Part shown: piece by piece, positions 1 through 12,736 of the stretch
Layout: the number at the start of each line of letters is the position of its first letter
Position numbering within the stretch: the stretch's first letter is position 1
From: Verrucomicrobiia bacterium
GTDB taxonomy: Bacteria; Verrucomicrobiota; Verrucomicrobiia; Limisphaerales; UBA8199
NCBI GenBank assembly: GCA_035946615.1
Contig: DASYZB010000136.1
Span: forward strand, 1 to 64,000
Length of the DNA: 64,000 bases
Reading direction: 5' to 3'
Program-made: the position numbers and the translations under genes
The notes under the pieces: generated by a model
Database searches by the model: none
The model's input: the letters and a program-made list of their open reading frames with translations, nothing else
What the model was told of the DNA's origin: nothing

Positions 1-260
1 AATACTTATTGAAAAGCCGTCCAGAAAACCGCCACCCGAAGAAAAACATCCTGGGCTCCTGGGAAAAGAGGGGGCGACTGTTAGGCAACCGCCAGCAGCC
101 AGCGCACAGTTACAACTCGGACGAACCCGAAAAATCCCTAAGTCGGAACCGCCGGCTTACGATTGCCGGCGGCTGGGGAGGGTAACAGCGGGCCAGGTCA
201 GGCACGACGGTTTCGGGGGCTCAACCCGTAGAATTTTCTTCGAGTTGACCCCCCCTTTTT
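1..260. other. Non-coding stretch at left edge with one GC-rich stem-loop
   Basis: No convincing reading frame is seen here. The only structure is a perfect 8-bp inverted repeat, CCGCCGGC at 149-156 and GCCGGCGG at 165-172, with an 8-nt loop. It lies about 90 bp downstream of the stop of the minus-strand DUF3631 gene. It lacks a proper U-tract on either strand, so a terminator role is only a possibility. Confidence 0.4.
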
Positions 261-1685
261 TTATTCTTTGCTGGGCTGGCCCTTCATGGGTTTTCCATTT
301 GTGGACCCGGTGGCCGGGGCCTCCTCTGCAGGCGGTCTGAGTTCATCGAGCAGCGCCCGAGCCTCGGATTTGGGCACATACCGCCGAACGGTTTCCACCA
401 TGTCCTCCTGGCAGTAGCCCTTTGCCTGGATACCCTCGATGCGCAGGTTGCGCGGGCGGATTCCATACGGACTCAACTGCCGCGCCAGCCACCGGTCGTC
501 AATCGGTTTGCCTCGCAGCAGGTCCTTCCATGGCCGGTTCGAGTAAGCGTTCAGGCGCTCGACCAGCCTCGAACTGAACAACCGATCGCTTTTGGCCAAG
601 TCAAACTGGATGAACACGTCGAACAGGAGCACCGCCATCGGATTCGAATCCGAAGAGGCGGCGGCTACGCCGATGGCCGCATCCCGCGCGAGCTGCGGCC
701 AGGAGCCGCCTGCCAGGTCCGCTATAACGAACAGCGGTTCCCAAACATCGGCCGCGCGGTCGTTGAGTTCACCAGGCATCTCCGGTTCGGCTGCGGCTAT
801 CTCCGCCGCGTGGTCCAGCACAAAACGCAGGCATTTGCGGTTCAGGTCGTCGGATTTGAATTTTCTGAGCCGCTCGCAAGGTTCATCGGCTGTTTTGCGC
901 TGCAACCGGAACACAATGCAGCGATCGGCTAGAGTCGCAGGCAACGCCCCGATGCGGGCGATCAATTTCGGGCACCAGCAGGAAAAGCGCAGAATTCCCG
1001 GGTTATATCCGCAAGAGGGATTAACGGAGGATGCACCGCCATTGCCGGACGCCGCCCCGGTTTGGCTCGGCAGGTTCACCGCCCGCAGCACGAACGCGGT
1101 CTTTTTGAAAGAGCTCGAATTCAGGATGCCACGCAGCTCATCGTTGCCGGTCAGAAACGTATCGGCTTCATCGATGAACAGCGTCGGCAGGATTTGGGCA
1201 ATCACCCGGAAGAACGATGGCGCGGTGACGTTCGAAGCGACCACCGCCCGCTGGGTCAGTTCGCTCAGTATGGTGATGAGGGTGGATTTGCCGCACCGAT
1301 GTTCCGGCGACTCGATGCCCAGGTAGGTCGTGATATCGCGATATTGAAAGGCAAACGTGTGAGGGACCCATAGAGCCATCGTTTCGGGCGCCCACCTGGG
1401 AAGCACCACGTGGCTCGTAATTTTAAGGCGAATCGCTTCGAGCAACTCGGCCCCATTCACAGGCTCCGGCCAGGGCGCGACCGGCGGAAGTGCCAGGATG
1501 GATTCGAGGTATTCGTCGAGCTCAGCCGCGGCCTGCTGCGAGACCGCCGGGAGCGCGGCAGTCGTCCCCGCCGATGGATCGATGGCGCGCGTTTCCGCTG
1601 GCCCCGCCGGCCCAGCCTGACTGACGAGAGGTGAGTTGTGACCATTGGCTTCTGATTCCTTATTCATGTAGTTTTCATTTCCCAT
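261..1685 (-). CDS. DUF3631-domain P-loop ATPase, element-associated
   Basis: A 474-residue protein whose middle part matches the DUF3631 family, found in phage and plasmid primase/helicase-type proteins and in mobile-element genes. Visible motifs are a Walker A-like P-loop HRCGKSTLITIL (about residue 130) and a Walker B-like LFIDEADTF (about 170). An arginine-containing segment ADRCIVFRLQRK follows. The N-terminal 60 residues are low-complexity and the C-terminus is a charged tail. Two in-frame starts, at 1685 and 1667, are equally possible. The gene stands alone beside a repeat-rich non-coding stretch, which fits an integrated replicative element better than a core gene. The ATPase fold is well supported; the exact biological role is unknown. 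Confidence 0.75.
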   Translation of the reverse strand: MGNENYMNKESEANGHNSPLVSQAGPAGPAETRAIDPSAGTTAALPAVSQQAAAELDEYLESILALPPVAPWPEPVNGAELLEAIRLKITSHVVLPRWAPETMALWVPHTFAFQYRDITTYLGIESPEHRCGKSTLITILSELTQRAVVASNVTAPSFFRVIAQILPTLFIDEADTFLTGNDELRGILNSSSFKKTAFVLRAVNLPSQTGAASGNGGASSVNPSCGYNPGILRFSCWCPKLIARIGALPATLADRCIVFRLQRKTADEPCERLRKFKSDDLNRKCLRFVLDHAAEIAAAEPEMPGELNDRAADVWEPLFVIADLAGGSWPQLARDAAIGVAAASSDSNPMAVLLFDVFIQFDLAKSDRLFSSRLVERLNAYSNRPWKDLLRGKPIDDRWLARQLSPYGIRPRNLRIEGIQAKGYCQEDMVETVRRYVPKSEARALLDELRPPAEEAPATGSTNGKPMKGQPSKE

Positions 1686-2720
1686 TTTGGCCTAAGCCAG
1701 ACAAAAAAGGTTTAGGCATGATGCCGCAATGCAGTATCAGTGCGCTGAATGCAGCGATTTCCGGGCCAAACTCGGGCGCAGCAACATTGGACTCCGGTGC
1801 GCTCGGTCCCCGGATTCTTTCGTCTCCATTCAGCCTCTGACTTCCTGATCCCCTGGAAAAACGAGTGAGACGGAGTGATGGGGTATTGGAGTGATGGAGT
1901 GGTGGAAAAACCCAATACTCCGAGCCTCATCGCGCTTTGATTGGGACGGTTGGGACGGTTTGGGACGGCAGTGGGACGGTCGCAAAAGTGAGAATCGCCC
2001 GTGTTTACCGGCCTTGGGACGGTGGGACGGCTGTACACCCCCAAAGCACCCCCTCTCCCCCCCACCCCGGCTCCGTGCCCTTCCGATCCTTCGGTTCCTT
2101 CCGATGTTGAATGTTCGACGTTGAGCGTTCGATGTTCAGCCCCTGGATTCCGCTTCCCCCTCATGACTTGCACTTAATTGCACTTAATTCCACCAAGTTT
2201 CACTTAATTTCTCCTAATTGCACTTCGACCTTGTTAGCCGACCTCCCAGTCTGTGGTCTTCTGGCCTTCTTTCTAAAAATTCAATGTCAAATTTCATCCT
2301 CGTCCTCGCTCGTTTTTTTTCGAACCCTTCCTCCTTCGAACCAAGCCAGACCTAACCTGTCTAACGCCTGCCAACAAAATCACGCCTCCTCATGAACCGG
2401 AACCAACCGGAGCTAATCGGAGGTAATCGGAACCAATCGGAGGCAAACCGCCCCTTTCTCGTGCCTCCGTGGTTTAGTCCCCTCCGGTTCAGTCTTCAGC
2501 CCACCGACCACCGACCACCGACCACCGACCACCGGTTGCACCAAATTGCAGTTAGTTGCGCGAAATTGCAGCAAATTGCGCCAAATTGCACTTCGCTCAT
2601 TTTGCCCCCCTTCCGTTGGCTATCGGCCATTGGTTATTGGCCATTGCCTCTCCCCCCCAGTCTGCTCTTCCCCAAAAAACCGGCGTCATCCGGAGTCAAC
2701 CGGACCTATCTCAGTTTCCT
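1686..2720. repeat. Repeat-packed non-coding region upstream of the DUF3631 gene (iteron-like)
   Basis: About 1 kb without a credible gene but with several unrelated short tandem repeats. TGGGACGG occurs six times (1942, 1951, 1961, 1972, 2015, 2023). A 12-15 bp GTTGAATGTTCGAC-like unit lies at 2104-2138, and TTGCACTTAAT-like units at 2168-2226. Five consecutive 10-bp units of the form AAYCGGARSY run from 2395 to 2444. CCACCGA occurs in about five exact tandem copies at 2501-2535, and AAATTGCA-type units lie at 2542-2590. Spacing near one helical turn next to a DUF3631 gene resembles an origin or regulatory iteron cluster, but this is inference. The long frames here are likely spurious. Confidence 0.6.
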
Positions 2721-2760
2721 TCACACCTTCCCCAGTTGACTGCTCCTCCATATCGCTAGA

Positions 2761-2790
2761 TAACGGTAAATAACGGTAAATAACGCTATT
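2761..2790. repeat. Three 10-bp direct repeats (TAACGGTAAA)
   Basis: TAACGGTAAA is present twice in exact tandem (2761-2770, 2771-2780), followed by a degenerate third copy TAACGCTATT (2781-2790). The stretch is AT-rich compared with its surroundings. It lies at the right end of the repeat-rich region and about 30 bp from the transposase-like remnant, so it may mark an element boundary or a protein-binding array. Confidence 0.5.
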
Positions 2791-2814
2791 TTGTAATATT
2801 TCAGTTTCCCTGCT

Positions 2815-2953
2815 GTTCGTCTTGCAAACTGCTCCCAGCGTTCGTGCTTGGTTTGTTCCACCGCCCTGACAATCTGCTCCCAAGTCACGGACGGGGCAAG
2901 CTGCTTCAAAGCCGCTTGTGCTCCCGCCGGTTGCCCCGCATTCGACGGACCAG
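2815..2953 (-). pseudogene. Remnant resembling the C-terminal part of a Y1/REP-associated transposase-like protein
   Basis: On the minus strand an open segment encodes a peptide including LAPSVTWEQIVRAVEQTKHE and RWEQFARR. This pattern is like the C-terminal accessory region attached to IS200/REP-associated (Y1) transposase proteins that I recall from related bacteria. The similarity stops abruptly at about position 2818, where the sequence becomes AT-rich and repetitive. No catalytic HUH domain is present upstream, where the DUF4159 gene lies instead. I read it as a truncated fragment marking a past rearrangement. The family assignment rests on memory of the motif only. Confidence 0.35.
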
Positions 2954-2987
2954 GCTTGGCGCGAAGGCTTCCGTGCCCAGCACCAGC

Positions 2988-3851
2988 TCAGTGGGTGAGG
3001 GCATAGACGGCGATGTTGAGGGCGAGGCGCTGGCCGTCTTCGGGGCTGATGCCTTTGCCTTCGTTGCAACTGTTGTTGGCGCTGAAGGCGCAACAGAGGC
3101 CGTCTTCACACAAGACAGCCACGAGGTTTCCTTTGTAAAAGAGGCCCTCGAGCTGGATGTCGCGCGGTTCATTGAGGCAGCGGATGCGACTCAGCTTGTA
3201 AAAAGAGCGATAAATCAAGTGATCGTAGGGAATCGGCTTGACCGCTTCACCCGGGAAAATCCGGCTGAATTCGCGCCGCCAGGCCTTCGGGAAATTCGGA
3301 TTGGTGCAACAACCCGAAGCCAGGAAGAACCCGCCATGGCTCAGATAAACTCGCAGGTTGTCGATTTCAGACTGAGTCAGGGTGAAATCATTGTGGCCGT
3401 TCATGAAAAGGAACGGGGTTTCAAACAGGTCCGGGTCGGTGAGGCTGATTTTGCGTTCTTCCTGGACCTTGATAGTCGAGGCGCGGGAGACCAGATTCAT
3501 GAGTTCCTGGCCAACACCGCCGCAGTCGTTGCCATCATTGGAGCTATACTTGACGCGGCCCATAAAGAAGGCGGCCCGGTTGTCCTTGATCTGGTTGTCC
3601 TTGATCTCCTGGCCACGGGCGGAAGCGAGTAAAGACCAGACCAGGAAACCGAGGGCGAGCGCAAGTCGAGTGGGGCGAAGGACAGGGGAGAATCGACAGG
3701 GAGGACCGTTGGATGGACTACACAGAGAGGGCCCGCTCTCCCCCGCCCTCTCCCTTTCTGAAGGGGAGAGCGGGAATGCTCGGCACCTTACAGTTGTAGC
3801 GCATGCCGCGAGCGCGTGAAGTTCGGGTATGGATGTTTTGGCAATTATCAT
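2988..3851 (-). CDS. DUF4159-domain protein, last gene of the MoxR/Bat operon
   Basis: The protein (287 aa from the ATG at 3851) has a hydrophobic export-like segment at about residues 62-79, then a DUF4159 domain. This family has a glutamine-amidotransferase-like fold and usually ends MoxR-Bat clusters. Typical blocks are AFFMGRVKYSSNDGND, DPDLFETPFLFMNGHNDF, LRVYLSHGGFFLASGCC and ALNIAVYALTH. The start is chosen because the upstream stop and this ATG overlap as TAATG. Residues about 27-51 are encoded by a dispersed CTCTCCC palindromic repeat that has kept the frame open, which puts unusual sequence before the signal-like segment. A later non-canonical start is possible. The domain has no proven catalytic function. 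Confidence 0.8.
   Translation of the reverse strand: MIIAKTSIPELHALAACATTVRCRAFPLSPSERERAGESGPSLCSPSNGPPCRFSPVLRPTRLALALGFLVWSLLASARGQEIKDNQIKDNRAAFFMGRVKYSSNDGNDCGGVGQELMNLVSRASTIKVQEERKISLTDPDLFETPFLFMNGHNDFTLTQSEIDNLRVYLSHGGFFLASGCCTNPNFPKAWRREFSRIFPGEAVKPIPYDHLIYRSFYKLSRIRCLNEPRDIQLEGLFYKGNLVAVLCEDGLCCAFSANNSCNEGKGISPEDGQRLALNIAVYALTH
3700..3776. repeat. CTCTCCC/GGGGAGAG dispersed repeat inside a coding sequence (copy 1)
   Basis: The sequence holds a hairpin-forming CTCTCCC...GGGGAGAG core preceded by a conserved flank, GAGGACCGT then ATGGACTA at 3713-3720. A second copy with the same flank and core lies at 42518-42610 in the debranching-enzyme gene. Aligning by eye, about 36 of 42 positions of the flank and first arm agree. 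It is read in frame within the DUF4159 gene. Confidence 0.7.
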
Positions 3852-6079
3852 TACCTCAGCCCCCAGTGTTTGCGCGCCAGCCAATCCCCGCATAGGCCCG
3901 CCAGCACCAGGGTGAGGGTCCAGCCGTTCAGGCCAATGGGCCGGTGTACCATTTTGGCGTGGCGGACCTCCTGGATTTTGCCTTTGATGCGCGAGACCAA
4001 GTCCGCTGCGTCCGGACAATCCTCGACTTTGAAGGCCAAGCCATCGCTCACGGAAGCCCATTGGCGCAGGGTTTCCATGTTGCGCGCGGTATTTTGGAGT
4101 TCGATATTCGGTTCGCGAATCTCGATTGGCCGGGTGCAAACCGGCGTCTTTAAGTTGTCGGTCACCAGGACTGTGTAGTCCCCGGCTTTTTGAGCATAGA
4201 AAGAGAAATCCACAGGCTGAAGGGGCTCCAACGCGATGGCCTCCTCATGGAGCACCTGTTTGGCTTCGTTGAGCACACGCACAAAAAATGTTTGGTTCGA
4301 ATTTGTGAGGCTGGCGGGACTGGGCTGCTTTTCGATTGTGACATGGACATCCATGCCCGGGTGCAGTTCCTGGTCGGCGAGGTGAATGGCCACATCCTGC
4401 CGGGCGGTGTCGCCCAGCCAGCGGAAGAGCTGGCGCCAGAAGCGATCGAATTGGCCGGGGTTGGAATCTTTTGCCAGGCGCCAGCGCCAGAAATTTTGCG
4501 CACACAGAACCGCTGAGAGACCGGCGCCATAGCGCTGGGCCGCCATGAGGATGCGTTTGCCCTCGGGTCCCTGATCGGCAGGATGGCGCATCCAAACCAG
4601 CGCCCCTGGTTTGGCCGCGTCCACCCGCGCGTATCTTGAAAAGGTTGGCAACTGGGCCCATGCCTCGGCTGAGGAGCGGTCCTCGGCGATTTGGAATACG
4701 GGGTTTTCGAGCGCTTCCTGAGTCAACTGCAAGTGAAAGGGCCGCTCCGGGTCAGCGAGGGCGTCTTCAGATGAAAAGGTCACCGGCAGCAACTGTTCAA
4801 GGCGGCTATTTTTCCAGGAACTATCAAAGGTCGCCGGACCGCCGATGAGCAGCACGCCGCCGCCCAACTCGCCGCAAAACCGGGCGAGCATCTCCTGTTG
4901 TCCGGCGCTCAGGTCTGATGGGCGCAAGTTGGATAGGACCACAATCCGAAACGGGGCCAGTTCGGCCAATGACGTGGGAAACCCATTCACCAATTCGCCC
5001 GCGCTCTCCACATTCTGCCGGAAGACGGAGTTATGCGATGTGCGCGCCAGGCCCGTGATCTTGATGGCCGGATCGGAATGCAAGGCGAGGCTGATAAACT
5101 TGTAATCCCAGGTAAGGGCCCCTTGCATATAAAGCAGCCGCAGCTCTTTTTGATCGGCAATCCGAACCGGGACGCTGGCCAGCGCGTTGAGGCACTTAAG
5201 GCCCGGCTGTTCAGGAGGCACCAATTGCACGGTGTAAGTATGCGCGCCCTGGGTTTCCTCAGTTTGCCGAAAGCTCTCGAGCCAATCGCGGGCGCCTTTG
5301 CCGGGGTTCGCGGTTCGCTTTTGCACAACCTGGCCGTCCCGCAGCAGCAGCAGATCAAAAGCGGGCATTGGTTCGGTGTCCATCATTTCCAGGCGCGCTG
5401 AAATGCTGAAGGAGGTTTTACTCGCCACTGTCGAGGGGGCTTCGACCCGGCGCAGGGAAAGGGTATTGAGCCCCTGGTCACTGCCGAAACCGAGGCCAAT
5501 GAATGGGGTATGGGTTGCAAGCAGCCCGCCTAAGGCGCGCGAATTGTCGGCATCTTCGTTAGCGCTCCCGTCGGTTAGGGCAATGACGGCCAGCGGCTGT
5601 GGCGTCGAGCCCTCCAGCGCTTGGGCAATTGCGCCCGCCAGATTGGTGCGTTTGCCTGACGGCTTGGTGGCAGCCAGTCTGCGACCGTCGGCCAGTTCGG
5701 TGGATTCATCAAAAAGAAGGGCGCGCACGGGCACGCCGGTGGCCTTAAATGCAGGGAGCAGGCGCTGGCGCAGGAATTGGAGGGCCTCTTCATAGCGTGT
5801 TGTGCCGTTCTCGGCCAAAGACATGCTCTCGCTGCGGTCCATCAGCAAGACGACCGGACGCGATGAGGCAGACAAGGCCGCTCTATTCAGCCAAATAGGC
5901 CGGGTTGCAAGAAAGAGCAATGGCAAGAAGGCGGCCAGGCGGAGCACGGCCAGATAGGCAATGCGGGAGCGACTCAAACCGCGTTGATGCTGTTGCCAGG
6001 CGGCAAAGGCCAGGGCCGCGCTCACAGGGATTGCAGCGAGCCAGCCGAGGGGGAATTCAAAGACGATTGCCGCAGTCAT
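3851..6079 (-). CDS. Membrane-anchored VWA-domain protein of the MoxR/Bat cluster (glutamine amidotransferase-like region)
   Basis: About 742 residues. The N-terminus has two hydrophobic segments (FEFPLGWLAAIPVSAALAFAA and a second near residue 45), followed by a von Willebrand A domain with the MIDAS motif DRSESMS and a later LTDGS. A region with VVLSNLRPSDLSAGQQEML and GGGVLLIGGPATF is typical of the GATase1-like segment of this family. A C-terminal hydrophobic helix (WTLTLVLAGLCGDWLA) suggests a second anchor. It is a structural or adaptor partner for the MoxR ATPase rather than an enzyme. The ATG at 6079 is preferred because longer starts would overlap the upstream gene's end; the gap is 22 bp. 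The stop overlaps the next start as TAATG. Confidence 0.85.
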   Translation of the reverse strand: MTAAIVFEFPLGWLAAIPVSAALAFAAWQQHQRGLSRSRIAYLAVLRLAAFLPLLFLATRPIWLNRAALSASSRPVVLLMDRSESMSLAENGTTRYEEALQFLRQRLLPAFKATGVPVRALLFDESTELADGRRLAATKPSGKRTNLAGAIAQALEGSTPQPLAVIALTDGSANEDADNSRALGGLLATHTPFIGLGFGSDQGLNTLSLRRVEAPSTVASKTSFSISARLEMMDTEPMPAFDLLLLRDGQVVQKRTANPGKGARDWLESFRQTEETQGAHTYTVQLVPPEQPGLKCLNALASVPVRIADQKELRLLYMQGALTWDYKFISLALHSDPAIKITGLARTSHNSVFRQNVESAGELVNGFPTSLAELAPFRIVVLSNLRPSDLSAGQQEMLARFCGELGGGVLLIGGPATFDSSWKNSRLEQLLPVTFSSEDALADPERPFHLQLTQEALENPVFQIAEDRSSAEAWAQLPTFSRYARVDAAKPGALVWMRHPADQGPEGKRILMAAQRYGAGLSAVLCAQNFWRWRLAKDSNPGQFDRFWRQLFRWLGDTARQDVAIHLADQELHPGMDVHVTIEKQPSPASLTNSNQTFFVRVLNEAKQVLHEEAIALEPLQPVDFSFYAQKAGDYTVLVTDNLKTPVCTRPIEIREPNIELQNTARNMETLRQWASVSDGLAFKVEDCPDAADLVSRIKGKIQEVRHAKMVHRPIGLNGWTLTLVLAGLCGDWLARKHWGLR

Positions 6080-6101
6080 CAAAACTTGGAGTGGAAAGCC
6101 C

Positions 6102-8675
6102 TCAATGTTCAGACAGTTTTTGGAAATAAGTTTGTATGCGACTGCGGTAGTTCGGAGGGAACCGGGAAGGGTCCATGCTTGTAACCTGTGGCTGGTCTTC
6201 CTGTTTCGCCAACCGGGCCGAGGTCTCCGTCGAGAAGCGCTGCAGCTCATTCATAAGCATTTGCAAGGCATTCGGGTCAATCGGGCCCCCGCCCTTGAGG
6301 GTTTGTTCAAGCTGGTTGAGGAGTTGCCGGCCTTGATCGGTTCCCTGAGAGTCGCTGCTGATGCCGGCCTGCAAATTAGCGAGCGCCTCCTGAGCCTGGC
6401 CTGCCCGATCACCAGCGGAGGATTTGCCGTTGTGTTCGAGTTGCTTCAGGAGGCTGTCGAGTTGGGCCATGCCACGAGTTAAACCGCCCTTTTCATCGGG
6501 CTTCAGAGGGTCAGACTGGCGCGCCATTTGAAGGGATTTAGGCTGGCTTTGCTCGAAGGCCTTGCTGACCTGAGCCAGGGCGTCGCGAGCCTCGGCAGCG
6601 CGTTGCGCGGGCGGGACATCGCCGGGTGCCTGGCCTGGGGATTGTCCAGCCTGTTCGAGACGGTCCAACCGAGTGTCCAGGTCCACTTTGCGCTCGCCGC
6701 TGAGGGCCTCGCGCAAAGGGTCGCCGAAAGCAGCACGGGTGGGTTCCTCCTCAGCAGCCGACCGGAGCTGATTGATGGTCTCGCGGGCCTGCCCGGCAGT
6801 GCGGGCGCCCTGCTCAGCGGAGACCTGCCCATCCTGCCTGGCCATGTGGTCGAACGTTTGGATATGTTGATCGAGCATTTGTTTGAGCCGGTAGGCGTCG
6901 GCCAGCTGATCAGCGGTGGCTTGGCGTTGGAGTCGCTGGTTAAGCTGTTCCAATTTCTGCGTGGCATTGCTGACCGCCTCGGGCGCCTGGCTGCTGCCGT
7001 GCGCGAGCGCGTTTGCGGCTGATGCCATAGCCTTCTGCGCCTGCTCGGAAGCGCCTTGCGATTTTTTAAAAACCTGCGGGTGCTGTCCCTGAAACTGGTT
7101 GAGATCATTGCGGAGTTGTTGCTCCTGTGAGGCCAGCCGCGAGCCTTCATCGGGCGAAGCCGCCTCAGACGATTGCTGTTCGATTTGGCGCTGTTGTTCG
7201 AGTGTTTTCTGAACGAAATCCGCGCCGGCCTTTGATTCGTCACGGAATTCGGCCATGTCTTTTAGGCTTTTGCCTGCCTCGGCAGAGCCTGATGATGCCT
7301 GCTGGCTTTGTTTCTGAAATGCGCCGGGCTGCCGGTTCACGCTTTGTTGAAAGAGTCTTCGAGCAGCAACCAGATGGGCGAGCGCATCGCGCTCAGGGCC
7401 TTGGGCTCGCTGCATTTGGTTCGTTTGAAGAAGGGTCGAGGCGGCTTCGAGGCTCTTTTGCGCCTCTCCAATACGATGCAGCGTCTCCGCGTCCGGCTGG
7501 TCTCCAACTTGGGCCGCCAGGTCTGCTTTCAGATGTCCTGCCGCGCCTCCAATGTCTTGTTCGGTCTCTGCAAGTTTTCTCTGGTCTGCCGAAGCGGTTT
7601 GAACGGGGCGCTGAATATGTTGGTAGGTTTTGCGGATAACCTGTTGCTGCTGTTGAATCATCCCCGAGAGTTGGCTGAGGGTCTTATAGGCCTTGCCCTC
7701 CCGGCCTCCAGGCAGGTTCATCAGCTCCTGCTGAAAAGGGCGCACTTCCAAAAAATAGAGTTGAGACGCGTAGGAGCTTTGGTGATCGGTGCGCGCGCGC
7801 GCGAAATAGGCAATCACGTCCCAATTCGTCAGATGCAAGCTGCTGAGGTCCAGGGCGGGCTGATATAAGGCGTAGTGCGGTTCGGAGGGCGCCGCCAGCG
7901 GATGGGTAACTTCCTCTCCGCCATTGAGCGTTGAGAACCAGCCGACATTGGTGAGAGCCTGATTAGCCGCCGCTTCAATCTGAAGCCGAACGATGTCCAC
8001 GCGGGTGACGGCCAGGTCCGCACCCGGCTCGGTAATCCGCACCTCACCCCAAGCCTGGTTTGATTGGATGCTATTGGTTGGCGGCAGAGCCAACTCCAAT
8101 GGTTGTTGAGTCGGGCGTGGTCGGACCGAAGTGATCTTTTGCGCCGCCATTAGCCGGCTCCAGGGAGCTGAACGCTCCAAAAACAAGACGGTCACCGCTG
8201 CCGTGAGGATGAAGGCAAATAAAAAGCCCAAAGGCCTGCAGGCTGAGAACGGTTGAGGGGATGCACTGCCCGTCAGCAGATGATGAGTTTGGCGGGCGAT
8301 GCGCAGGGCAAAGGATTCCGAGCGGGCCTGGCTGGGGCGGTTTTCCAGGAAAGCAAGGGTGTTCAACCGATCGAGCAAACGAGCGTCGGATTGCTCGACA
8401 GTTCCAGCCAGCCAGCCCCGGTCAGGCCCGCCTTTCAGCAAATAAAACAAAACCATCAGCCACGCTGAAAATCCGCAGCCGCCGATGAGGCTGAACCCGA
8501 TGGCCGCTGTGGTCTTGTGAGTAATCCATCCACGGAGGATGGCCGTCCCCAAGGCAAGGGCTGCCAGACACAGCAGAATGCCCAGCGCCGAACTCAATTC
8601 CAGCAGCCATAATAATTTCCAGCGCAGTTCCGCCCGTTTCAGGCTATGTTCGACAATCGTAAAGCGCGATTTCAC
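6102..8675 (-). CDS. Large DUF4175-like membrane protein with coiled-coil C-terminus
   Basis: 857 residues. Two N-terminal transmembrane helices (about residues 20-50 and 60-85) and one near 150-170 are followed by an extracytoplasmic region. The second half is long, rich in Gln, Ala and Glu, and probably coiled coil (many QQQ, EQAQKA and LEQLNQRLQRQ stretches). This layout matches DUF4175-type proteins in alphaproteobacterial and PVC-group MoxR/Bat clusters. No catalytic motif is visible. Its start overlaps the stop of the upstream BatA-like gene by 4 bp (ATGA), so the two are probably translationally coupled. The role is probably structural in the envelope-associated MoxR/VWA system; the family assignment is from architecture and context. 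Confidence 0.75.
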   Translation of the reverse strand: MKSRFTIVEHSLKRAELRWKLLWLLELSSALGILLCLAALALGTAILRGWITHKTTAAIGFSLIGGCGFSAWLMVLFYLLKGGPDRGWLAGTVEQSDARLLDRLNTLAFLENRPSQARSESFALRIARQTHHLLTGSASPQPFSACRPLGFLFAFILTAAVTVLFLERSAPWSRLMAAQKITSVRPRPTQQPLELALPPTNSIQSNQAWGEVRITEPGADLAVTRVDIVRLQIEAAANQALTNVGWFSTLNGGEEVTHPLAAPSEPHYALYQPALDLSSLHLTNWDVIAYFARARTDHQSSYASQLYFLEVRPFQQELMNLPGGREGKAYKTLSQLSGMIQQQQQVIRKTYQHIQRPVQTASADQRKLAETEQDIGGAAGHLKADLAAQVGDQPDAETLHRIGEAQKSLEAASTLLQTNQMQRAQGPERDALAHLVAARRLFQQSVNRQPGAFQKQSQQASSGSAEAGKSLKDMAEFRDESKAGADFVQKTLEQQRQIEQQSSEAASPDEGSRLASQEQQLRNDLNQFQGQHPQVFKKSQGASEQAQKAMASAANALAHGSSQAPEAVSNATQKLEQLNQRLQRQATADQLADAYRLKQMLDQHIQTFDHMARQDGQVSAEQGARTAGQARETINQLRSAAEEEPTRAAFGDPLREALSGERKVDLDTRLDRLEQAGQSPGQAPGDVPPAQRAAEARDALAQVSKAFEQSQPKSLQMARQSDPLKPDEKGGLTRGMAQLDSLLKQLEHNGKSSAGDRAGQAQEALANLQAGISSDSQGTDQGRQLLNQLEQTLKGGGPIDPNALQMLMNELQRFSTETSARLAKQEDQPQVTSMDPSRFPPNYRSRIQTYFQKLSEH

Positions 8676-10702
8676 GCGGCCTCCTTCTTTGCGTCTGCCA
8701 GCGCCGACTCAATGGCCAACGCCAATAACGCTGCCAAAAGCATCCACCACCACCAGCGCTGCTGCAAGATAACCCGCATCGACTGGCCCCCGGGTATTCT
8801 ACCACCGATTGAGCCAGCGGCTTTATCACCGCTTCTCCAACTCTTCAGCGCATTGGGTGGGGCGGCATAGACTAATTGCGATTCCTTTGGCGAGGGGTTT
8901 ACGCAAAGCATCCTGCCGGTTCCCTCAGCGCCATAACGCAGATCATAAACTCCAGGCTGGTCTGGCATTGGCAATTGCACCCTGCGCTGCTCGATGCGGA
9001 CGCGCTCGACTTCGCGTCCCTCATGCAAAAGGACGGCCTCACGCCCCGAGGCCCCATCAGGCAAATCGAGCCGGACAACCTCGCCGGGTTCAAACACGCC
9101 AGGACTGGCCCGTTCGGCTCTCGCGGCTTGCAGCGCCAGGTCCAAAAACGGGATAAAGGTGGGATGAATCGGCCACGAGGTGTGCTCCCGGTCCAGACCA
9201 AAGGCTAGCAAGAATAATTTTCCTGGATAATTCTTGCCCTCGAAAAAAAGACCGGCGCCGCTCTGGCCCAGAACGAGGGGGACGCCCTGGACAGTCCGCA
9301 GGCGGGCGAACTGGGTGACTTCGATGTCCAACAGATTGCCAAAATCCGGCGCCAGGAATGGACGGAAAATGGGATGCGTTGAACAGATGAAACCAAAATG
9401 CTGAGGCGTTTGGGTTGCGGACTGCTCGCCCGGCTCAAGGTCGAAACCGAGTTCGTGCAAGAACGCCACCACAGCAGGCGCCATCCGATTGACGAGCAAA
9501 AAGACCCCGCGCCGGTTGTCGAGATAGCGGTGGACCAATTTGCGAGCGTTGGCCGATTGGAGATAGCCGCTCTCGATGCAGAGCACATCCGCCAGCTCTT
9601 GCGTTTCCATTTCCGGCGCCAGATTGGCCGGGTTCAGCAACCGAGGGGCCCATTGGCCCCGCATGACCTCGGGCGAAAGCGCCAAACGCAGGTAAGGCGA
9701 TTGAGCCAGCAACGCCACTTTGCCCTCGGCTAATGGGTCCAGTGAAAAAAAGACGCTATTGTCCGCCTTCAACGCGTCGGGTTCTCCCTGGATGGTTGCC
9801 TCGCCCCGGACGGGCAGCTCGCGGGCGGCTTGCCACTGCGCTTGGAGCAGCATCGTCTCTGGCTGGCCTTCCAGGGGAACGGACCGGCTGAAAACCGGCT
9901 GGCCATTGGCGGTGACAATGACCCGAGCGGTTTTTGCAGGACCAGCGTGGTTGAGTTTCACAGTAAGGTGCACCAACGATTTTTCACCCGGCAATACCCG
10001 CTGCGCGTGGGGGTCAGCCAGCCAGAGATTTGGGAGCGAGGGCGCGGTGGACTTTGGAAGCTCGATTTGCGCGTTGCCCAAAAAGGGCGGGACGCTGCCA
10101 TTTTCATCCCATTGATTGCGCTGGTTGTCCCCCAGCAGAATGATGCGCTTATTTTTCACCAGGGAATTGGCGAGCAGCGAATTGGCCATACGGAAAGCGG
10201 CCAGATACGAGCCGCGCTGGAAAGAAGGCCGCAATGCACGAACCTTTTGGCGAGCCGCCTGGCGGTCAATGCCAAACGGGGCAATGAGCCGAGGCGCGGC
10301 GGTTAATTCGACCACCGCAACCTGAACATCCTGGCCGGCGCTTTCGAGCTCATGGATGACCCGGGCACGGTCGGTTTCAAAGCCATTGTTGGCCTGGCGG
10401 CTCATGGTATTATCCAGCAGGTAAACACGGCTTTCCCGAATCCCGGCAACGCCGGCGCGATGAAGGTAGGGCCAGGCAAAGGCCCCCAGAACCAGGAGCA
10501 ATCCTAAAACCCGCAGAGCCAACAGCGCCGCGTCCCGCAACCGCAAAGGGGCGCGGCGCGCAGCGGGCTGGTCTGTCAGAAACTGAACGGCAGAAAACTG
10601 GATTAGACTTTTCTGCTGTTTGCGGCGCAAGTGCAGCCACAAGGGCGCCACAAGACCCAGGGCGCCAAACCAGAACCAGGGATTGAGAAAAGACAGCGGC
10701 AT
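8672..10702 (-). CDS. BatA-domain (aerotolerance-regulator N-terminal) membrane protein
   Basis: 676 residues. It starts with the characteristic BatA N-terminal helix (FLNPWFWFGALGLVAPLWLH) followed by LRRKQQKSLIQFSAVQFL, and a second helix near residue 60. A VWA-like region follows (VYLLDNTMSR, with a degenerate MIDAS), and a C-terminal tryptophan-rich helix (RWWWWMLLAALLALAIE) anchors the end. It belongs to the Bat/MoxR system, where BatA/BatB-like VWA proteins sit in the membrane and are acted on by a MoxR AAA+ ATPase. The DUF58 gene ends 4 bp upstream and the next gene overlaps by 4 bp. The degenerate MIDAS suggests that metal binding may be lost. Confidence 0.85.
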   Translation of the reverse strand: MPLSFLNPWFWFGALGLVAPLWLHLRRKQQKSLIQFSAVQFLTDQPAARRAPLRLRDAALLALRVLGLLLVLGAFAWPYLHRAGVAGIRESRVYLLDNTMSRQANNGFETDRARVIHELESAGQDVQVAVVELTAAPRLIAPFGIDRQAARQKVRALRPSFQRGSYLAAFRMANSLLANSLVKNKRIILLGDNQRNQWDENGSVPPFLGNAQIELPKSTAPSLPNLWLADPHAQRVLPGEKSLVHLTVKLNHAGPAKTARVIVTANGQPVFSRSVPLEGQPETMLLQAQWQAARELPVRGEATIQGEPDALKADNSVFFSLDPLAEGKVALLAQSPYLRLALSPEVMRGQWAPRLLNPANLAPEMETQELADVLCIESGYLQSANARKLVHRYLDNRRGVFLLVNRMAPAVVAFLHELGFDLEPGEQSATQTPQHFGFICSTHPIFRPFLAPDFGNLLDIEVTQFARLRTVQGVPLVLGQSGAGLFFEGKNYPGKLFLLAFGLDREHTSWPIHPTFIPFLDLALQAARAERASPGVFEPGEVVRLDLPDGASGREAVLLHEGREVERVRIEQRRVQLPMPDQPGVYDLRYGAEGTGRMLCVNPSPKESQLVYAAPPNALKSWRSGDKAAGSIGGRIPGGQSMRVILQQRWWWWMLLAALLALAIESALADAKKEAA

Positions 10703-10706
10703 CGGT

Positions 10707-11624
10707 TTAGCACAGCCGTTTGCGTTTGGTTAAAAACAGGGCCAGCGCCTCCCAGGGGTTCTGGTCGGTGCGCACCACGCAGTGGGGCATCGAGAGATCA
10801 CGGAACAATTCATAATGACGCCGCATGAAGGCGTGGAACCGCTCGAGGTACTTCTCGCGGACGGCTGCTGGAGAAACCACTCGCCGGACTCCACTTTCCA
10901 AATCCTCGAAAACTCGCGGCTCAAGGAAAGGAAACTCCACCTCGTCGCGGTCCAGGACCTGGAAAATAATGACCTCATGGCCTTCGAAGCGGAGTTGTTT
11001 AAAGGCAAGGGCGATTTCATCGTTGGATTCGAGCAGGTCTGAAAAGAGCAAAACGACGCTGCGGCGATGAATCAAGCGGGTTGCCTGCTGCACGAGACGC
11101 GCCAGGCATGGGCCGCCGCCGGGCGCCAAGGCTTCCAGGCGCCGCAGCATCAATCCAAATTGCGCAGTGCCTTGCGATGGGCGTATGTACTCCGCCGCGT
11201 TCTGCTCATCCAGCCGCACCATTCCCGCCGCGTCGTTCTGCTTCAATAAGAACCACGTCAAGGCCGCCGCGAGGACCTTGGCGCACTCAATCTTTGAGCC
11301 CCAGGCCCCAGCCCCGCGATAGCCCATTGAGGCGCTGGCGTCGCAAAGGATATAAAACCGGACATTGGTTTCCTGCATGTAGCGCTTGATACAAAGCCGA
11401 TCGCTGCGCGCATAAAGGCGCCAATCCAGGTTTCGCAAGTCATCCCCGGCCTGGTAATTGCGGTAATCGCTGAATTCCACGCTGAACCCATGGAACGGGC
11501 TGTTGTGCAAGCCGCTCAGGAAACCTTCCATCACATAGCGCGCCTTGAAATCGAGACCTTCGAGGGCAGAGAGCACCTTCGGATCGAAATGCTCGGCTAA
11601 AGTCTGTGTGGGCTGCTTAGGCAT
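10707..11624 (-). CDS. DUF58-domain protein
   Basis: 305 residues, the usual length. It contains the DUF58 core FSDYRNYQAGDDLRNLDW and RLYARSDRLCIKRYMQETN, followed by a VWA-like strand ending in the MIDAS-type CDASASM. Near residue 150 it has VRLDEQNAAEYIRPSQG. DUF58 proteins are cytoplasmic partners encoded directly after moxR in most bacteria, and are thought to be adaptors or substrates of the MoxR chaperone-like ATPase. It lies 62 bp downstream of moxR and 4 bp upstream of the BatA-like gene, in the same orientation. Family assignment is secure; biochemical function is not known. Confidence 0.9.
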   Translation of the reverse strand: MPKQPTQTLAEHFDPKVLSALEGLDFKARYVMEGFLSGLHNSPFHGFSVEFSDYRNYQAGDDLRNLDWRLYARSDRLCIKRYMQETNVRFYILCDASASMGYRGAGAWGSKIECAKVLAAALTWFLLKQNDAAGMVRLDEQNAAEYIRPSQGTAQFGLMLRRLEALAPGGGPCLARLVQQATRLIHRRSVVLLFSDLLESNDEIALAFKQLRFEGHEVIIFQVLDRDEVEFPFLEPRVFEDLESGVRRVVSPAAVREKYLERFHAFMRRHYELFRDLSMPHCVVRTDQNPWEALALFLTKRKRLC

Positions 11625-11686
11625 TTGGCTTTTTGGTGTTGATCAGACCCGCCTGACGCCGGCTCCTGCATGTTTAAACCGCCTTC

Positions 11687-12736
11687 TCAATCCCGGCCCA
11701 CGTCCTCAATCAGTTGATTTATGATGTCGTCGCTGGTCTTTCCGTCCGCATCGGCGTGGAACGTGCGAATAAGCCGGTGGCGCAAGATGAGCGGCGCCAA
11801 TGCCGCAATATCCTCACACGCCACGTTGAATCTACCCTGGCAAGCAGCCCGTGCGCGCCCGGCCAAAACGAGGTACTGGCTGGCGCGGGGGCTTGCGCCC
11901 CAGCGGACCCAGCGTTTGATGTAGTCGAATTGCTGCCCATCGTCAGCAGGCCGCGTGGCGCGCACTAGGCGAACGGCATAATCGATAACATTGGGGGCCA
12001 CAGGCATCTCGCCTATCGCGCTGCGGAACTGGAGGATTTCGTCGGCTCCCAGCACCGGCTGGATATGTTCGAGCGGGGTAAAGGAATGCTGGTCCACCAC
12101 GCATTTCTCTTCCTCGAGCGTCGGATAAGGCACCAACAGTTCAAACAGGAACCGGTCCAGTTGCGCCTCCGGCAACGGATAGGTCCCTTCCTGTTCGATC
12201 GGGTTTTGCGTCGCCAGCACCATGAACGGCTCTTCCAACCGGTAAACCTTTCCCGCAACCGTTACGGTCTTTTCCTGCATGGCTTCCAAAAGGGCTGCCT
12301 GCGTCTTGGGCGGCGTGCGGTTGATTTCGTCGGCCAGCAACACCTGGCCGAACACCGGGCCGCGGATAAACTCGAATCGGCGATGCCCCGTCGCGGTATC
12401 TTCTTCGAGTATTTCCGTGCCGGTGATGTCCGAAGGCATCAGGTCTGGCGTAAATTGAATCCGTGAAAAGCTCAGGTCCAATGTCCGAGCCAGGCTGTGG
12501 ACCAGGAGCGTTTTAGCCAACCCGGGCACACCGACCAACAAGCAGTGCCCCCGCGCCAATAACGCATAGAGCGCCGCCGCGATGATCTCTTCCTGGCCGA
12601 CAATCACTTTGGCTATCTCACGGTGAAGGGCTTTTGCCTTTGGCGCCAGGGCCTCCAGGACCGCCCCTGGGTCCTGAACGACGCCCATCGCCGGCCGGAT
12701 GGCCTCACCCGGTTGAATGGTGGATCGGGCAATCAT
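11687..12736 (-). CDS. MoxR-family AAA+ ATPase
   Basis: 349 residues, typical for MoxR. It has Walker A GVPGLAKT, Walker B LLADEINRTPPKTQAALLEA, sensor-1 LATQNPIEQEGTYPLPEAQ and the arginine-containing AQLDRFLF. The C-terminal lid carries WGASPRASQYL. MoxR proteins remodel or activate VWA-containing partners, which is what the following five genes encode. The ATG at 12736 is supported by a GGAGG located 11 nt upstream. It is the first gene of the minus-strand operon, so a promoter should lie in 12737-12973, although no clear one was identified. Confidence 0.92.
   Translation of the reverse strand: MIARSTIQPGEAIRPAMGVVQDPGAVLEALAPKAKALHREIAKVIVGQEEIIAAALYALLARGHCLLVGVPGLAKTLLVHSLARTLDLSFSRIQFTPDLMPSDITGTEILEEDTATGHRRFEFIRGPVFGQVLLADEINRTPPKTQAALLEAMQEKTVTVAGKVYRLEEPFMVLATQNPIEQEGTYPLPEAQLDRFLFELLVPYPTLEEEKCVVDQHSFTPLEHIQPVLGADEILQFRSAIGEMPVAPNVIDYAVRLVRATRPADDGQQFDYIKRWVRWGASPRASQYLVLAGRARAACQGRFNVACEDIAALAPLILRHRLIRTFHADADGKTSDDIINQLIEDVGRD

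Follow-up and report, generated by a model that had tools for sequence, protein, structure and literature searches.

The array of TGGGACGG repeats upstream of a DUF3631 gene in the window (the first 64,000 nucleotides of contig C136 of a soil-type Verrucomicrobiia bacterium) is most likely one half of an iteron-type origin of replication. This follows from the geometry of the array, from the linkage of that geometry to DUF3631 across genomes, from an MCM-type structural model of the protein, and from covariation of its residues 420 and 421 with the repeat core. We put a probability of about 0.68 on the complete reading, in which the array (H1) is the target of the adjacent DUF3631 protein, likely a self-loading MCM-type initiator, and half-sites of this kind have spread. 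The reading covers H1 alone; eight other arrays of the same cluster lie outside its account.

A dense cluster of short tandem arrays upstream of a DUF3631 gene

Using TRF (period 6-14, score at least 36), we found 10 non-overlapping short tandem arrays in the 951-bp cluster, covering 368 of its bases. In 200 dinucleotide-preserving shuffles of the same 951 bp the mean was 0.04 arrays and the maximum 1. The background in a sample of the same genome, window included, was 99 arrays per 377,123 bases (0.26 per kb). Besides the window cluster, at least four arrays per 1.2 kb were present in 4 of 20 sampled stretches of this genome. The cluster lies upstream of the DUF3631 gene, and the contig ends 260 bp behind that gene. 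The features are as follows (strand is given where one is assigned).

261-1685, minus strand: DUF3631 gene, short form (474 aa, stop codon included), encoding a P-loop ATPase with a C-terminal winged helix and no primase part
366-590, minus strand: part coding for the winged helix, residues 366-440 (wing residues 412-425 at 411-452)
1878-1905 (tandem run spanning 1872-1906): Module I, 8-bp repeats of GGAGTGAT type that are also scattered over other parts of the genome
1941-2037, minus strand: H1 half-site, a CGTCCCA pair 8 bp apart, a 43-bp step and four more copies 9-11 bp apart, running toward the gene
2168-2225: Module G, TTGCACTTAA 10-bp array
2270-2299, minus strand: T, a unique conserved stretch, TTGACATTGAATTTTTAGAAAG, common to L007, L143, L144 and L160
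2395-2449: Module F, AAYCGGARSY-type 10-bp array (TCCGATTA/AATCGGAGGT), a discrete block of about 66 bp at several loci
2501-2534: Module E, CCACCGA 7-bp repeats, 4.9 copies
2534-2595: Module D, TTGCGCCAAATTGCAGCAA 10/20-bp array with AAATTGCA/TTGCGC units, a discrete block of about 66 bp at several loci
2616-2646: Module C, TTGGCTATCGGCCA 7/14-bp repeats
2678-2704: Module B, AACCGGAGTC 10-bp array
2760-2822: Module A, ATAACGGTAA array (2.6 copies, 2760-2785) and the outer edge of the cluster

A first-pass annotation had described a dense array of repeat families with 7-10 bp periods beside the DUF3631 gene. Every family that it named was found and the periods were borne out, confirming this description; its list lacked GGAGTGAT, TTGGCTATCGGCCA and AACCGGAGTC (Modules I, C and B). 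The main point it missed concerns the six copies of TGGGACGG (CCGTCCCA on the minus strand), which start at 1942, 1951, 1961, 1972, 2015 and 2023. They do not form a single run but are arranged as four, a 43-bp step and two. Absence of the repeats from homologous loci, which it had named as counting against its reading, is not what we found: paralogous and homologous loci carry related arrays.

Half-sites of constant geometry are dispersed in several genomes

Next, we compared H1 with similar sites. A spacing of 8 and then 42-45 bp was constant over 19 inspected sites with differing cores. Paralogues of the gene in the same genome are 51-52% identical and have the same upstream layout with other cores, CGTCA(A/G) in L007 and CGTTACA in L006. 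Exact patterns gave 15 half-sites in this genome (6 CGTCCCA, 6 CGTCA and 3 CGTTACA). A fourth DUF3631 of the genome (L008) has TGCAACA-type repeats behind the gene, and similar sequence occurs at three further loci.

The CGTKACA pattern, searched exactly, was present 20 times in G112 and 10 times in G188. When ten G112 loci were compared, about 70-200 bp around the site was common at 80-95% identity and the flanks were mostly unrelated; BLAST with one G112 site returned 33 further matches across the site. The orientation of dispersed copies to neighbouring ORFs was not constant. In an empty-site comparison for G169:C511, unrelated DNA lacking the site follows the orthologous gene in G154, the right flank being at a contig end. 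In genomes with dispersed half-sites, most DUF3631 genes are of the short form, which lacks the primase part.

Several other arrangements were seen. A fourth dispersed family, AGTGCAACATGCTACA with inverted GTTGCACTT, is located at 2000-2140 of L153, 1-180 of L155, 7550-7700 of L158 and 6480-6700 of L008, and matches the site behind a long DUF3631 gene of contig C131. In G154 and G169 (L231, L163), half-sites of two core types lie side by side, as do the arrays of the window. By eye, a REP-associated Y1 transposase-like gene is placed between half-site and DUF3631 gene in L063 of G112 (about 4120-4560).

Half-sites are linked to DUF3631 across genomes

A DUF3631 relative was detected (E 1e-25) in 28 of 293 genomes of the order. 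The pattern CGTKACA-CGTKACA-(28-45)-CGTKACA was found in 8 of the 293, all of them among the 28 with DUF3631 (hypergeometric p 2.5e-9), and its CGTCCCA version in 10, of which 7 have DUF3631. Reversed-pattern controls for both versions gave 0 in the 293 genomes. In G030, a genuine-looking CGTCCCA half-site is present and DUF3631 was not detected at E 1e-25. G186 and G211 (L228, L229), with no DUF3631 detected, contain mainly plain CCGTCCCA tracts of 8-bp period, which are long and look like ordinary microsatellites. DUF3631 itself was present in just 3 of 387 genomes of the phylum sample.

The position of half-sites relative to the gene was then counted. A half-site lay within 260 bp after the DUF3631 homology at 24 of 44 loci, compared with 16 of 1489 control windows taken from these loci; this count omits 5 of 49 loci, one with no gene hit and four with fewer than 120 bp behind the homology. 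Half-sites in both orientations followed DUF3631 at 13 of the 44, and the strict half-site was missing after the gene at 20, including the locus of the window. At several loci the forward half starts 8-20 bp past the DUF3631 homology, with the end of the inverted half 130-210 bp on. In long-form genes, the paired site is inside the coding end. Cores read by eye vary by locus (CGTGACA, CGTCACA, CGGAACA, GGTAACA, CGCTACC, CGCCACA, CGCGACA, CGTAACC). Iteron-like repeats also follow DUF3631 in viral contigs, a Pseudomonas phage, two AICE-like Streptomyces plasmids and Haliea, with a different spacing in some; by eye, none were seen behind DUF3631 in L010 and L211. Array density alone was tried as a mark of DUF3631 loci and rejected, as it fits several short-form genes and fails for most long forms; half-site geometry was used instead. 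As a separate observation, the ORF just behind the long-form genes of L068, L069, L074, L078 and L091 is short and starts like MTAxELYxEAxxxGLRLEPRGDKLAV.

The DUF3631 protein models as an MCM-type helicase

The protein contains a PF12307 domain (E 5.9e-42, 144.3 bits against a cutoff of 24). In an AlphaFold2 model built from 20 sequences (mean pLDDT 80.3), a P-loop core is followed by a winged helix at the C-terminus, in which residues 397-407 form a helix and residues 412-425 a wing. The 50 best VIA-align rows were all MCM proteins or MCM-containing complexes, with Z values of 15-17.6. The top row had a Z of 17.6 and an rmsd of 9.1 Å, and the next a Z of 16.9 and an rmsd of 3.0 Å over 224 residues. 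Among the best rows, rmsd was mostly 3-4 Å across about 210-257 residues, spanning mainly residues 57-347 and hardly including the winged helix. The best Foldseek matches include MCM, AAV Rep40, ORC and SaPI5 PriRep1. An earlier model from 6 sequences (pLDDT 63.5) had no structural match at E 0.001, and a sequence search of PDB with the protein gave no significant match. Judged by its predicted fold, the DUF3631 protein is most likely an MCM-type helicase.

Both the position of the sites and the fold of the protein bear on the idea that half-sites are operators through which DUF3631, or another regulator, controls its own gene and others. A half-site a few hundred bases upstream of the gene, as in the window and two paralogues, would suit an operator. 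However, the site is behind the gene or inside the gene end in most relatives, dispersed copies are not constantly oriented to neighbouring ORFs, and the ATPase is MCM-like. We consider an operator function unlikely.

Two wing residues covary with the repeat core

We asked how the protein relates to the core of its repeats by pairing 40 DUF3631 domains with a core, 36 located behind the gene and 4 upstream (window, L006, L063 and L064). Cores were assigned by eye, and L070 was dropped from the wing alignment, leaving 39 sequences. In this full set of 344 columns, the strongest association with core base 4 was that of residue 420, and with base 3 that of residue 421; the two are neighbours in the predicted wing (window numbering). 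With the 35 behind-gene cores only, 420 was still first for base 4, and 421 was fourth for base 3, for which residue 413, also in the wing, was first. Among 25 sequences below 60% identity, from all core sources, 420 was first (base 4) and 421 twelfth (base 3). Among 19 behind-gene sequences below 50% identity, 420 was seventh of 335 and 421 was 74th, a fall in rank indicating that relatedness inflates the covariation signal.

At residue 420, T goes with A at base 4 in 10 of 14 cases, V with T in 6 of 8, R with G in 5 of 6 and Q with C in 2 of 2; A421 goes with T at base 3 in 15 of 16. Sites outside the association set, which had been viewed before the comparison, gave both fits and misfits. 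The viral L216 has Q420 and A421 with CGTCCCA, and L055 of G008 has Q420 and A421 with CCGTCCA, the residues also found in the window. L218 (R with CGTGACA), L223 (V with CGTTACA) and L089 (T-P with TGCAACA/CGCAACA) also fit, and L219 and L213 (T with C) and L008 (I with TGCAACA) misfit at base 4. Together, the exceptions to the code are L071, L081, L087, L205, L209, L214, L219, L213 and L008.

Covariation also weighs on the possibility that the arrays have no function and accumulated by microsatellite-like expansion where the intergenic region tolerates it, with their proximity to DUF3631 incidental. CCACCGA, GGAGTGAT and TTGGCCATTGGC are indeed simple 7-8 bp repeats, and the plain CCGTCCCA tracts of two genomes without DUF3631 point the same way. 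Speaking against such expansion are the fixed spacings of 8 and 42-45 bp with a conserved spacer, the co-occurrence with DUF3631 in 8 of 8 genomes, the inverted pairs at gene ends and the wing covariation. Already disfavoured for H1, such an expansion stands as an explanation of Modules A-G; for the cluster as a whole we regard it as quite improbable.

A model for H1 and its spread

In the mechanism that we propose for the origin, the DUF3631 protein would be a self-loading, MCM-type hexameric helicase initiating replication. Its C-terminal winged helix would read the 7-bp core (CGTCCCA in the window), binding two closely placed copies of it (8 bp) together with an array about four helical turns off. 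In the ancestral form, two half-sites may have faced each other right behind the DUF3631 domain, either within the end of the coding region or just past it, a layout that would persist in phage, plasmid and long-form Verrucomicrobiota relatives; we infer its ancestry from this spread rather than from a tree. Such a head-to-head layout would allow two helicase rings to load head to head. In the lineage of the window, the primase part would have been lost, with the site now upstream, single and extended in its array. Half-sites of several core types would have spread as units of about 85-120 bp and clustered with other short arrays, the rest of the cluster being other dispersed modules. Counting against the origin reading, the window site is a single half upstream and not a head-to-head pair after the gene.

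A broader version is tentative, and we place it somewhat below even odds: Limisphaerales-type genomes may each hold tens of origin half-sites of about 85-120 bp, in families matched to their own primase-less MCM-like helicases by a two-residue wing code, and these may be ori-only mini-elements or loading sites of a domesticated bacterial MCM. Three features are new here: a fixed geometry, often head to head, in which the core diversifies; the correspondence between wing residues and core bases; and half-sites that are dispersed through genomes. Dispersed half-origins in this and related genomes suggest a poorly known route by which replication signals spread. If the reading is true, DUF3631 proteins would work as MCM-type self-loading initiators with head-to-head iteron origins, and origin half-sites could turn into dispersed repeats of bacterial chromosomes. 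The DNA code would also be readable, residue 420 tracking core base 4 and residue 421 base 3, so that origins could be predicted from protein sequence. Finally, a single-protein system would be at hand to test how an MCM-like ring chooses and loads on DNA.

Comparison with known systems

According to passages of PMC7581432, SaPI Rep and SCCmec Cch/Cch2 are self-loading hexameric helicase initiators with iteron origins, Cch being MCM-like. The same passages describe recognition of short iterons directly downstream of the helicase gene by the C-terminal domain of SaPI Rep, apparently with two hexamers bound, and C-terminal origin recognition with iterons downstream of the helicase gene for SCCmec Cch2 (PMC7581432). 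Judged by model fold alone, the window protein similarly has an AAA+ MCM/SF3-type hexameric helicase core. Bearing on iteron recognition by its C-terminal domain are the winged helix of the model and the 420/421 covariation, which drops to rank 7/74 below 50% identity. Unlike in those systems, the window site is upstream and a single half, a downstream site being found at 24 of 44 DUF3631 loci. Pfam scanning of the window protein gives PF12307 alone, in contrast to Cch (DUF927) and Cch2/SaPI5 Rep (Primase_Cterm). The 8 + 42-45 bp head-to-head pairs, the wing residue-base correspondence and the dispersed half-sites of DUF3631 loci are further differences from SaPI Rep/Cch.

Passages of PMC3218068 equate DUF3631 with RepAM of pMEA300-type AICEs, whose role in autonomous replication was demonstrated and which was predicted to be a rolling-circle initiator. 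In contrast to that prediction, the MCM-like model and the inverted iteron sites suggest that DUF3631 is a helicase initiator. The window protein shares its Pfam domain, PF12307, with RepAM, and two Streptomyces plasmids with a DUF3631-Prim-Pol-integrase set also carry repeats after the gene. RepAM of AICEs is accompanied by an integrase, an FtsK-type transfer protein and often a Prim-Pol. None of these neighbours the window gene in the stretch covered, where the nearest upstream proteins scanned are DUF4159 and one with no family and the contig ends 260 bp behind the gene.

In REPIN/RAYT systems, one or few genes of mobile-element type are accompanied by numerous short copies of the DNA that they target, scattered between genes. 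The present system is similar in having one or few mobile-element-type genes and many dispersed intergenic target copies, but the H1 unit consists of direct repeats, with neither a hairpin palindrome nor a Y1 transposase, and the linked gene is the helicase DUF3631. Cyanobacterial heptanucleotide STRR repeats are likewise short-period and intergenic; we know of no linked initiator gene or fixed half-site geometry for them. In the papers reached by our searches on DUF3631, RepAM origins and Verrucomicrobial dispersed repeats, we found no description of these sites.

The other modules of the cluster

The cluster is composed of separate dispersed modules and is not a single element. When 1686-2830 served as a BLAST query against its own genome, 58 pieces matched, counting the place of the query itself. 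Fifteen contigs carry a piece within 1.5 kb of a contig end, so the assembly seems to break at these sequences. Discrete blocks with repeatable edges, D and F among them, emerged when the cluster was compared with the C112 copy. The blocks occur in similar order at several loci, yet are also solitary, and at several array loci a DUF3631 gene was absent from the fetched stretch. GCTTAATTTG arrays, related to Module G, are found at the corresponding place in L007, L136, L143, L156 and L160, and the Module B array also lies upstream of the L007 paralogue, as TCCGGTTGAC. At the outer edge, matches stop at 2821-2822 in three other contigs and at 2816 in a fourth. Neither a gene-side end matching the outer edge at 2821-2822 nor a target-site duplication was found, and we therefore claim no transposon.

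By eye, Modules A-G and I have the 7-10 bp period and the neighbourhood in common with H1 but not its half-site geometry, and the direct 8 + 42 geometry was not seen in D and F. In 12 other genomes of the family, Modules A-G gave just short weak matches, in G002, G004 and G008; G004 is without DUF3631. No Rfam families were found within 1-12000 of the window. These modules may be the targets of other proteins, relics or simple expansions.

The first-pass annotation had likened the cluster to a replication origin or partition site of an integrated element. Its origin part is supported for the TGGGACGG array, with its layout, linked helicase and matching wing residues, and not for most other arrays. 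A partition site is supported neither by the ATPase, which models as MCM-type, nor by the three nearest proteins, which by Pfam are DUF3631, DUF4159 and one with no family: unlike at plasmid parC/parS, they include no ParA/ParM/ParB-like family, no TubZ-type NTPase and no centromere-binding protein. An integrated element with boundaries also found no backing, as no attachment site was found. Iteron-like arrays next to a P-loop ATPase, with an origin-like module, would agree with the whole cluster being the centromere, partition site or origin of one integrated plasmid, but this is very improbable given an ATPase that models as MCM, modules occurring separately at unrelated intergenic places, DUF3631 as the sole element-type ORF family common to array loci, and the absence of an integrase family from the three proteins scanned.

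Shared cargo at array loci was also considered and rejected, the large clusters being array-overlapping frames, DUF3631 with overlapping frames, and families taken as ordinary chromosomal. The DNA beside L150, L157 and L145 encodes unrelated-looking proteins. Two contig ends, L149 (1-450) and L151 (7200-7690), both show H1 followed by D with matching intervening DNA, and may represent a single repeat or a contig join. At 4880-5150 of L159, an N-terminal fragment of DUF3631 is joined straight to D/E arrays, a decayed copy. By eye, a dispersed sequence, GGACCG-GGGATGGACTACAC and then CTCTCCCC...GGGGAGAGGG, recurs near several of these loci; the GGACCG-GGGATGGACTACAC type is located at 3700-3800 of the window, at about 3820-3890 of L006, at about 1445-1560 and 5370-5400 of L007, and at 7100-7240 of L143.
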